Shown piece after piece: positions 41,755-44,183 of a stretch of 54,637 bases of DNA. The first letter of the stretch is position 1; every line of letters starts with the position of its first letter. The position numbers and the translations under genes were made by a program. The DNA comes from Nocardiopsis listeri (GTDB lineage Bacteria > Actinomycetota > Actinomycetes > Streptosporangiales > Streptosporangiaceae): assembly GCF_020741345.1 (NCBI RefSeq), contig NZ_DYZD01000222.1, forward strand, positions 1-54,637, in the 5' to 3' direction. The notes beneath the pieces were generated by a model, which had not been told where the DNA came from, did no database searches, and saw only the letters and a list, made by a program, of their open reading frames with translations.

Positions 41755-42690
41755 TCAGCGGCCCATCCGGTCGTCTTCGGTGGGACGCACGCCACGAGCC
41801 CAGTCCACCGCGGCCATGGCCTTCTTGCCCTGGGGCTGGACCTCGCCGAGTTCGACCGGGTGGGTGCTGGTACCCGCCAGGACCCGCTTCTTGTCCACGT
41901 ACAGGTGGCCGGGGTCCAGGTCGGGGCGGTCGGCGTCGGTGACGGGCCGGACCGGTCCCACCTTCAGACGGGTGCCGCGGAAGGTGGTCCAGGCGCCGGG
42001 GGCCGGGGTGCAGGCGCGGGCGACCCGGTCCAGACGCAGGGCGGTCCAGGTGAAGTCGAGTTCGGCGTCCAGGGGGGTGAGCTTGCCGGCGTAGGAGACG
42101 TCGGCCTCGGGCTGCTCGACGGGGACGAGTTCCCCGGAGGCGATGCCGTCGACGGTGCGCGCCAGCAGACCGGCACCGGACTCGGCCAGGCGGTCGAGGA
42201 GATCGCCACTGGTGTCGGTGGGGCGCACGGTCTCGGCGACGGTGCCGAAGACCGGCCCGGCGTCGAGTTCCTTGACGATGCGGAACGTGGAGGCTCCGGT
42301 GACGTCGTCACCGTGCAGGACGGCGTGCTGGACGGGGGCCGCGCCGCGCCAGGCGGGTAGCAGGGAGAAGTGCAGGTTCACCCAGCCGTGCACGGGGATG
42401 TCCAGGGCGGACTGGGGCAGCAGGGCACCGTAGGCGACCACCGGGCAGCAGTCGGGGGCGATCTCGCCCAGGCGGGCCAGGAAGTCGGGGTCACCGGCCT
42501 TGGCGGGCTTGAGGACCTCGATGCCTTCGCTCTCGGCGAGCTCGGCGACGGGGCCGGCCGACACCTTGCGGCCACGCCCGGAGCGGGCGTCGGGCCGGGT
42601 GACGACGGCGGCGACCTCGTGTTCGGAGTCGATCAGGGCCCGCAGAGAGGGCACCGCCACCTCGGGTGTACCGGCAAAGACCAGCTTCAT
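41755..42690 (-). CDS. fmt: Methionyl-tRNA formyltransferase
   Basis: Formylates initiator Met-tRNA. From the ATG at 42690 it has 311 residues: [37 protein letters not shown], and [20 protein letters not shown] with the catalytic Asn and His. The C-terminal OB-like domain follows. There is no ribosome binding site before this ATG, because a transposable element begins at the very next base (42691). The former site (GAGGAGGA) is visible at 44064-44071, beyond the other end of the element. The frame stays open into the element to 42771, so an extended N-terminus, for example from an ATG at 42759, is possible. Confidence 0.95.
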
Positions 42691-42710
42691 CAGGTTGTTG
42701 GGCGTGAAGA

Positions 42711-42730
42711 CCCCGTCCTTCAGGGCGGGG
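42711..42730 (+). repeat. Left-end hairpin of the IS605-type element
   Basis: An 8-bp stem (with one G-T pair) and a TTCA loop, 20 nt inside the left boundary. This is the kind of hairpin recognised by Y1 transposases (TnpA) acting in trans. Confidence 0.65.
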
Positions 42731-42789
42731 AGGGAACGCCCTCTCCTTTCCGTACACATATTTACAAGCAAGCCGATGGAATGTTAGCC

Positions 42790-44014
42790 ATGGTGAGGAA
42801 GACCGTGAAGCGGGCGTTCAAATACCGCTTCTACCCCACAGACGCGCAGACGGCCGAGCTGTCGCGCACGTTGCGGGTGTGTTCGCCTCGTCTATAACAA
42901 GGCTCTCACCACCCGCACCGAGGCGTGGTATCAGCGCCAGGAACGGGTCGACTACAACGCGACCTCGAAGATGCTCACAGGGTGGAAGAAGACCGACGAT
43001 CTCGACTTCCTGTCCGAGGTTCCCTCTGTTCCTCTTCAGCAGACGTTGCGGCATCTCCAAGGCGCGTTCTCGAACTTCTTCGCGGGCCGCGCCAAGTATC
43101 CGCGTTTCAAGTCGCGCAAGACGTCCCGAGCCACCGCGGAGTACACCCACAGCGCATTCCGTTACCGCAACGGCTACCTGACGCTGGCGAAGATGGCCGA
43201 TCCGTTGGACATCGTGTGGTCGCGTCCCCTGCCAGAGGGGTCGACGCCGTCTACGGTGACCGTGATGCGTGACGCGGCGGGTCGCTGGTTCGTATCGCTT
43301 TCGTGTGAGGACGTGGTCGGCTCCGACCCGGCACCGAATGACGCGGTCGGTGTGGATGCGGGCATCACCTCCCTTCTCACCCTCTCCACGGGTGAGAAGG
43401 TTGCCAACCCCAGACATGAGCGGCGCGATCGCAGCAGGCTCGCAAAGGCTCAGCGGGAGCCGTCCCGCAAGACCAAGGGCGGCAACAACCGGGAGAAGGC
43501 CCGGCGGAAGGTGGCTCGGGTGCACGCCCGCATCACCGACCGGCGTCGCGACTTCCTCCATAAGCTCACCACTCGTCTCGTCCGCGAAAACCAAGTGGTC
43601 GTGATCGAGGACCTGACCGTGCGCAACATGGTCAAGAACCGCAAGCTCGCCCGCGCCATCTCGGACGCGGCGTGGACTCAGATGCGGGCCATGCTGGAAT
43701 ACAAGGCTGAATGGTACGGGCGTGAGCCGGTCACAGTGGACCGGTTCTTCCCCTCCTCCAAGCTGTGCTCGGCGTGCGGAAGCGTCCAGGAGAAAATGCC
43801 GTTGAGCATCCGCACCTGGACATGCGCGTGCGGTATCACCCATGACCGCGACGTGAACGCGGCGATCAACCTCAAGGCGGCCGGGCTGGCCGTTTCTGCC
43901 TGTGGAGCCGGTGTAAGACCTCAACGGGAGTCCTCCCGAACGGGGCTGTCGGTGGTGAAGCAGGAAGGCCACGGGGTGACCCGTGACGGGGCGCGAGCCC
44001 CGAACCACCGTTAG
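42790..44014 (+). pseudogene. tnpB: tnpB, RNA-guided nuclease of IS605 type, frameshifted
   Basis: The first part (from the ATG at 42790; KTVKRAFKYRFYPTDAQTAE) stops at 42897. The protein continues one frame over as CVRLVYNKALTTRTEAWYQR and onward to 44014. The shift is around 42875-42878, where one extra or two missing bases would explain it. The downstream part is intact: RuvC Asp in VGVDAGIT (codon 43355), Glu in VIEDLTV (43607), Asp in HDRDVNAAIN (43844-43852), and zinc-finger pairs CSACG and CACG. As read it is broken unless ribosomes shift frame. TnpB cuts DNA using a guide RNA from the element's right end. Confidence 0.88.
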
Positions 44015-44078
44015 GTGGTTCCGGAATCCCCCTCCTGCCAGGAGGGGGAGGAAGTCAAGTTCGACCATTCCTCCTCGA
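43880..44078 (+). ncRNA. Candidate omega (reRNA) guide RNA of the tnpB element
   Basis: In known TnpB systems the guide scaffold is made from the 3' end of tnpB plus the right end, and the guide is the flanking 16-20 nt. Here three stable hairpins cover 43987-44048. The tnpB stop lies in the loop of the second. The flank at 44059-44078 would be the guide and corresponds to the empty fmt leader next to TTCAT. The 5' limit is a guess. Confidence 0.45.
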
Positions 44079-44183
44079 CTGCGACCACACGTCACTGTTC
44101 TACCGCACTCCCCACCGAGAACGCGCCTGTGTCGGGCTTCTCGCGCCCCTGGCCCGTCGTGGTCATCTGATAGACCAAAGGAG

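Follow-up and report, generated by a model that had tools for sequence, protein, structure and literature searches.

How can a gene be translated when a transposable element ends directly at its start codon? This question is raised by fmt in the window, the 54,637-nucleotide stretch of DNA analysed here. The locus is laid out as follows.

Positions 41755 to 42690, minus strand: fmt, methionyl-tRNA formyltransferase (Pfam PF00551 and PF02911; 95% identity to Nocardiopsis listeri Fmt).
Positions 42687 to 42690, plus strand: target motif TCAT at the left boundary of the element, the reverse complement of ATGA, i.e. of the fmt start codon and one further base.
Positions 42691 to 44058, plus strand: tnpB (OMEGA) element of the IS200/IS605 type, 1,368 bp, without target duplication, defined by its boundaries and the empty site of N. 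listeri.
Positions 44059 to 44080, plus strand: flank adjoining the right end, the presumed guide source by analogy with known TnpB elements; it holds the displaced native Shine-Dalgarno sequence (SD) of fmt, GAGGAGGA, on the minus strand at 44076 to 44069.
Positions 44093 to 44102, minus strand: displaced promoter-like motif of fmt, TAGAACAGTG, now beyond the element.

The element lies directly 5' of the fmt ATG (42690 to 42688, minus strand). When 42691 to 44058 is removed in silico, GAGGAGGA comes to stand 10 nt from this ATG, and the leader rebuilt in this way resembles the uninterrupted leaders of relatives. The closest relative read, N. listeri (Fmt 95% identical), has the uninterrupted leader GTCGAGGGGGAATGGTCCAAAC followed immediately by ATGAAG, and comparison with this empty site reveals no target duplication at fmt. 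An uninterrupted-looking fmt leader was found in all 29 same-genus genomes read, out of 36 others in the genus set, and a covariance model of the element's left end gave no match at these 29 fmt loci at E values up to 0.1. Of the 29 relatives, 26 have the promoter-like TAGAAC ahead of fmt, 11 of them as the full motif TAGAACAGTG. The preliminary description of this DNA had placed a tnpB element precisely at the fmt start, had stated that its deletion restores a normal leader and that the native SD now lies beyond the element, and had proposed to look for an uninterrupted leader in close relatives. Its boundaries are correct to the base, and the comparison bears out the rest. It had also called the insertion recent-looking, which is unsupported, since the best near-full-length relatives of the element are just 75–81% identical (with a query one base short at the right end).

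Two parts of the element identify its family.

Positions 42790 to 44014, plus strand: tnpB, frameshifted near 42,880 and a pseudogene as assembled (Pfam OrfB_IS605 and Cas12f1-like_TNB on 42971 to 44014; TnpB structures 8bf8 and 8h1j).
Positions 43927 to 44058, plus strand: right end with a putative omega (guide) RNA scaffold, a role suggested by the family; a terminal hairpin at 44028 to 44048 is recognised by sequence, and the element ends in GTCAA.

Membership in IS200/IS605 agrees with the two protein domains (OrfB and the zinc-ribbon TNB), with an insertion point on the 3' side of a short constant motif (TCAT) and no target duplication, as seen from the fmt empty site, and with imperfect hairpins at both ends, the right one by sequence. 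The frameshift falls in the N-terminal part of tnpB, and an intact relative is present in N. listeri. At the right end, a sub-threshold Rfam match to HgcC (43927 to 44071, 25.2 bits versus a gathering score of 50) would fit a putative guide RNA scaffold. No TnpA is encoded inside the element; Y1 transposase matches occur in 13 of 40 genus genomes, with only fragments in the genome of the window. A left-end match on contig C220 of genome G000 has Y1 fragments nearby, but these appear to be part of another element.

The preliminary description held that fmt is left without a ribosome binding site. In the direction of fmt, the left end runs AAAGGAG, a single base, GGGCGT, an inner hairpin rich in GC, ACGCCC, AACAACCTG and the ATG, which divides it into three features.

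Positions 42743 to 42749, minus strand: SD AAAGGAG facing fmt, 52 nt from the ATG along the linear sequence and about 10 nt when bridged.
Positions 42700 to 42741, minus strand: left-end stem-loop, with an outer stem (42741 to 42736 pairing with 42705 to 42700) and an inner hairpin (42730 to 42711), supported by covariation and folding.
Positions 42691 to 42699, minus strand: spacer between stem-loop and fmt ATG, exactly 9 nt long in 41 of 48 aligned left ends.

The AAAGGAG stands at the base of one arm of the stem-loop, and the base of the other arm is separated from the ATG by 9 nt. Using the anti-SD letters that we presume for this ribosome, the predicted pairing is −12.7 kcal/mol for the left-end AAAGGAG versus −11.6 kcal/mol for the rebuilt native leader. 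In the genus alignment an SD-like motif, taken from a loose set, is found in all 48 left ends; family f19 has a weaker-looking SD by eye. Stem pairs are 95.7% intact across the 48 rows, with 29 double-change cells versus 10.9 after shuffling, and slid controls are 26–48% paired. Two left ends folded singly also showed the stem-loop, at a stability not clearly beyond that of dinucleotide shuffles (z −0.65 and −1.25). The predicted structure is that of a hairpin-bridged ribosome binding site, where a distant SD is brought near the start codon by a stem-loop. In IS200/IS605 elements one expects a hairpin at the left end, and the stem-loop together with its fixed 9-nt spacing could come from the Y1 transposase alone. 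That fmt was severed from any ribosome binding site and is poorly expressed, as the preliminary description would have it, draws on the native SD now being some 1.38 kb from the ATG. We regard this as very improbable, given a strong SD in a conserved arrangement at the left end and the same arrangement before many housekeeping genes.

Of the three routes that had been offered for the fmt start, namely the transposon's left end, an extended N-terminus and a leaderless start, our comparison favors the first and speaks against the other two. An N-terminal extension would run in frame through the left end, for fmt from TTG 42771 or ATG 42759. The fmt frame is indeed open to 42771, and the host frame is open across the left end in 43 of 48 rows; yet another frame is open in 41 of 48, about as often, and in 29 of 51 copies the open stretch (at most 240 nt) contains no start codon in frame. 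These two observations make extension unlikely as the general mode. There is also no SD before ATG 42759 by eye, and we consider extension at fmt highly unlikely. Leaderless initiation would require a promoter inside the left end and an mRNA beginning at the ATG. Leaderless mRNAs are common in actinobacteria, but no TANNNT-like −10 element is seen by eye just upstream of the ATG, and a conserved SD would serve no purpose in such a transcript. This route seems hardly more probable than a severed fmt.

If the left end acts as a ribosome binding site, it matters where other copies are found. We defined 51 left ends in the genus by BLAST, with boundaries set from the first base of the element and without reference to any ATG. 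TCAT was located exactly at the boundary in 43 of these, within 1–3 nt in 4 more, and was absent in 4. Among 65 ATGA-bounded left ends of the genus, fmt included, 55 precede a coding-like open reading frame and 10 do not. The coding test demanded at least 100 amino acids, a GC3 of at least 0.80 and GC3>GC1>GC2; it accepts internal Met codons too, in the background likewise. The 65 include repeated host genes, and the 55 positives represent 48 distinct genes (clustering gave 49, missing the pair L111/L232). Excluded from the count were secondary short hits and seven BLAST places without CAT near the boundary (L086, L104, L109, L115, L116, L122 and L124), of which L086 and L104 read TCAC, i.e. 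GTGA. Eight further genus places reading GTGA or ATGG were left outside the 65, and some boundaries read GTGA before GTG starts (L226, L230 and L237).

The same coding test was passed by only 29 of 184 background ATGA sites in the window, and chance placement was rejected on these grounds. By a rough home-made gene call, the ATGA sites of the window comprise 7 starts, 21 intergenic sites and 161 sites inside genes, and 10 of the 28 outside called genes pass the test. Avoidance of damage alone should consequently leave roughly a third of the copies at coding starts, not 85%. This bears on the rival reading of survivorship only, according to which the transposase accepts any TCAT, copies that disrupt genes disappear, and the SD-like motif serves the transposase or a promoter and plays no part in translation. 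TCAT is indeed also used where no qualifying open reading frame follows (L081, L085, L125 and others), and the left-end hairpin of the family would be there anyway. However, apart from the 10 of 28 versus 55 of 65, housekeeping hosts such as fmt, pth and miaA require some translation start, and the SD is placed differently in two types of left end, at a plausible functional distance in both (see below). We therefore judge survivorship alone to be unlikely, although it is the most serious of the rivals.

The host starts are natural N-termini where this can be tested by profile alignment. Twelve of 20 host proteins scanned exceed the NCBIfam curated cut-off: methylmalonyl-CoA epimerase, MiaA, an ABC-F ATPase, RuvA, YbeY, PcaD, Pth, an aspartate ammonia-lyase type protein, HisA, a DrrA-type ATPase, MenD and PyrD. 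In 11 of the 12, position 1–3 of the profile aligns within the first 20 residues, the exception being the ABC-F ATPase. Ten further host proteins were scanned with Pfam, and seven matched. By these counts, start-codon placement is usual for the element group and not a singular accident at fmt. N. listeri, too, has left ends of this kind at the starts of host genes (L076 and L091). The menD start was matched in three genomes (L107, L164 and L234), which suggests a shared or recurrent site.

Beyond the genus, the left-end covariance model matched in 64 of 394 genomes of the class. The model contains ATGA and thus favors ATGA boundaries, though not what follows them; the 51 BLAST-defined ends are free of this bias. 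Of 60 top-listed places taken from beyond the genus, 55 have ATGA at the boundary; a coding-like open reading frame follows at 39 of these and not at the other 16. The 60 skip some contig-end or duplicate contigs, leave out weaker listed places, and contain repeats (L173/L174/L175/L177, L189/L192 and L193/L196). The model also matches the fmt start in two other genera. In genome G326 (L166) a solo left end forms the fmt leader, with no core recognisable by eye in the stretch read, and priA is there on the other strand. In G269 (L199) the leader resembles an IscB-type element in decay, and an AAGGAG precedes the ATG by 5 nt. At least two actinobacterial-type left ends were seen in a metagenome-assembled genome labelled Steroidobacteraceae (L308), which is perhaps mis-binned.

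A second set of copies was anchored in the protein. With the N. listeri TnpB as query against named genomes, 80 loci were obtained, most of them in Streptomyces, but also in Actinomadura, Micromonospora, Catellatospora, Nocardiopsis and others. The left end could be placed in 65 of them, with [AG]TGA accepted at a distance of at most 8 nt in either direction; at 8 loci, matched by the hairpin alone, the ends are estimates. ATGA was read in 61 of the 65, and 51 of these 61 precede coding open reading frames. The four ends without [AG]TGA include L265 and L302, where another base follows the ATG. Outside Nocardiopsis, after removal of 8 copies already counted, 43 of 53 ATGA-bounded copies precede coding open reading frames, while the background of these loci gave 307 of 1242 sites.

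In these Streptomyces-type left ends, which finish in CCACGGAGGAATCCG or CCACGAAGGAGATCCG, the SD has another position. AAGGA, AGGAG or GGAGG is found 5–8 nt before the ATG in 50 of the 53 non-Nocardiopsis copies, whereas the same motifs occur within 20 nt upstream of only 63 of 1284 background ATGA sites. This test covered all 57 non-Nocardiopsis loci, 53 of them with ATGA; in an earlier hand-picked set of 37, 34 were parsed and 32 had an SD. No promoter was identified inside the left end in the Streptomyces-type alignment, despite roughly 100 well-conserved nucleotides. Two SD positions, each plausible for initiation, point to translation of the host gene as the conserved constraint, and this is our strongest argument from sequence. 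In genome G005, near 1414–1480 of L320, another kind of element, which has a TnpB and an intact Y1 TnpA, also abuts, by eye, the ATG of a lipoprotein-like open reading frame.

A host that depends on the left end should keep it. We compared four host genes, each matched in two genomes and paired by host gene. Left end, next 100 bp and host gene are 99%, 72% and 93% identical in L101/L103; 89%, 85% and 90% in L118/L120, where no core is visible; 81%, 71% and 91% in L079/L084; and 75%, 62% and 80% in L073/L127. The left end is better kept than the next 100 bp in all four pairs, strikingly only in L101/L103 and barely in L118/L120; the identity of the host gene exceeds that of the left end in L079/L084 and L073/L127. 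At L121 an internal deletion has left only the left and right ends; the SD is lost, and GGAG stands 5 nt before the ATG instead. These few cases, the four pairs and L121, fit a dependence of the host on the left end.

The left end is not restricted to tnpB. By keyword tags, 53 left-end places in the genus carry TnpB in 27 cases, IscB in 17 and neither in 9, and the TnpB- and IscB-type elements have TCAT and the left end in common. The IscB proteins have relatives among PDB structures. In the copies translated (L087, L089, L094 and L107), iscB is oriented toward the host gene; the end of its coding sequence includes the host SD, and its stop codon falls within the loop of the left-end hairpin. 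Translational coupling of IscB with the host gene is possible.

Taken together, we propose that actinobacterial OMEGA elements with a TCAT target mostly sit 5' of start codons and that their left end serves as a portable translation initiation region, a reading to which we give a probability of roughly three in four. For fmt, translation then most probably continues to begin at its own ATG, by means of the SD of the element. What the sequences themselves provide are the boundaries, TCAT, the start-codon placement, the SD, the covarying stem-loop and the fmt empty site. The further course would be that insertion at a TCAT overlapping the start codon turns the left end toward the gene and replaces the native SD by that of the element. 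In the Nocardiopsis type, the SD, stem-loop, 9 nt and ATG would act as a hairpin-bridged ribosome binding site, while in the Streptomyces type the SD would act directly, 5–8 nt before the ATG. We infer that ribosomes use this SD and that translation goes on from the native ATG. The fmt transcript would read through the element, having started either at the native promoter, now displaced, or at an undetected one within the element. Start-codon copies would dominate since insertion there is nearly harmless and the host afterwards needs the left end. We also lean, with less confidence, toward a wider view in which TnpB and IscB elements across a wide range of actinobacteria form a guild that evolved such "start-codon parking", making insertion tolerable even at housekeeping genes whose hosts then depend on the left end, and in which some left ends now are solo native leaders, as for fmt in G326 (L166).

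If true, compact RNA-guided nuclease elements would persist harmlessly because they settle at start codons and supply a functional ribosome binding site. Some actinobacterial genes, housekeeping ones among them, are predicted to be translated from transposon-derived leaders, which would supply compact natural ribosome binding parts and ready test constructs. In the open-access literature we found no report of start-codon placement with a built-in ribosome binding site, and as far as searched it appears undescribed; an earlier report is possible because most subscription journals fall outside this scope.

The element itself belongs to a known family. It resembles IS200/IS605 tnpB elements (IS1341-like, OMEGA; e.g. 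ISDra2 TnpB) in its OrfB and TNB domains, a short target motif at the left end, the lack of duplication, the hairpins at the ends and a right end that is possibly an omegaRNA scaffold. It differs in having a target complementary to a start codon with one further base, and an SD at the left end that faces outward. In 17 of the 53 genus places, IscB elements have the same left end and TCAT, but there IscB reads toward the host gene with its last codons overlapping the host SD. For phage T4 genes 25 and 38, a structure-bridged ribosome binding site is established: folding between SD and AUG reduces their distance from 27 to 11 nt and from 22 to 5 nt (PMC3014915). The predicted bridging from 52 to about 10 nt is alike in principle; unlike those split sites, the structure here is carried by a mobile element and the linear spacing is about 52 nt. 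IStrons combine a group I intron with an insertion sequence and are reported to be transposable elements with built-in harmlessness to the gene (PMC4227781). The avoidance of harm would be built in here as well, by translation initiation instead of splicing, and a further strategy would stand beside that of the IStron intron.
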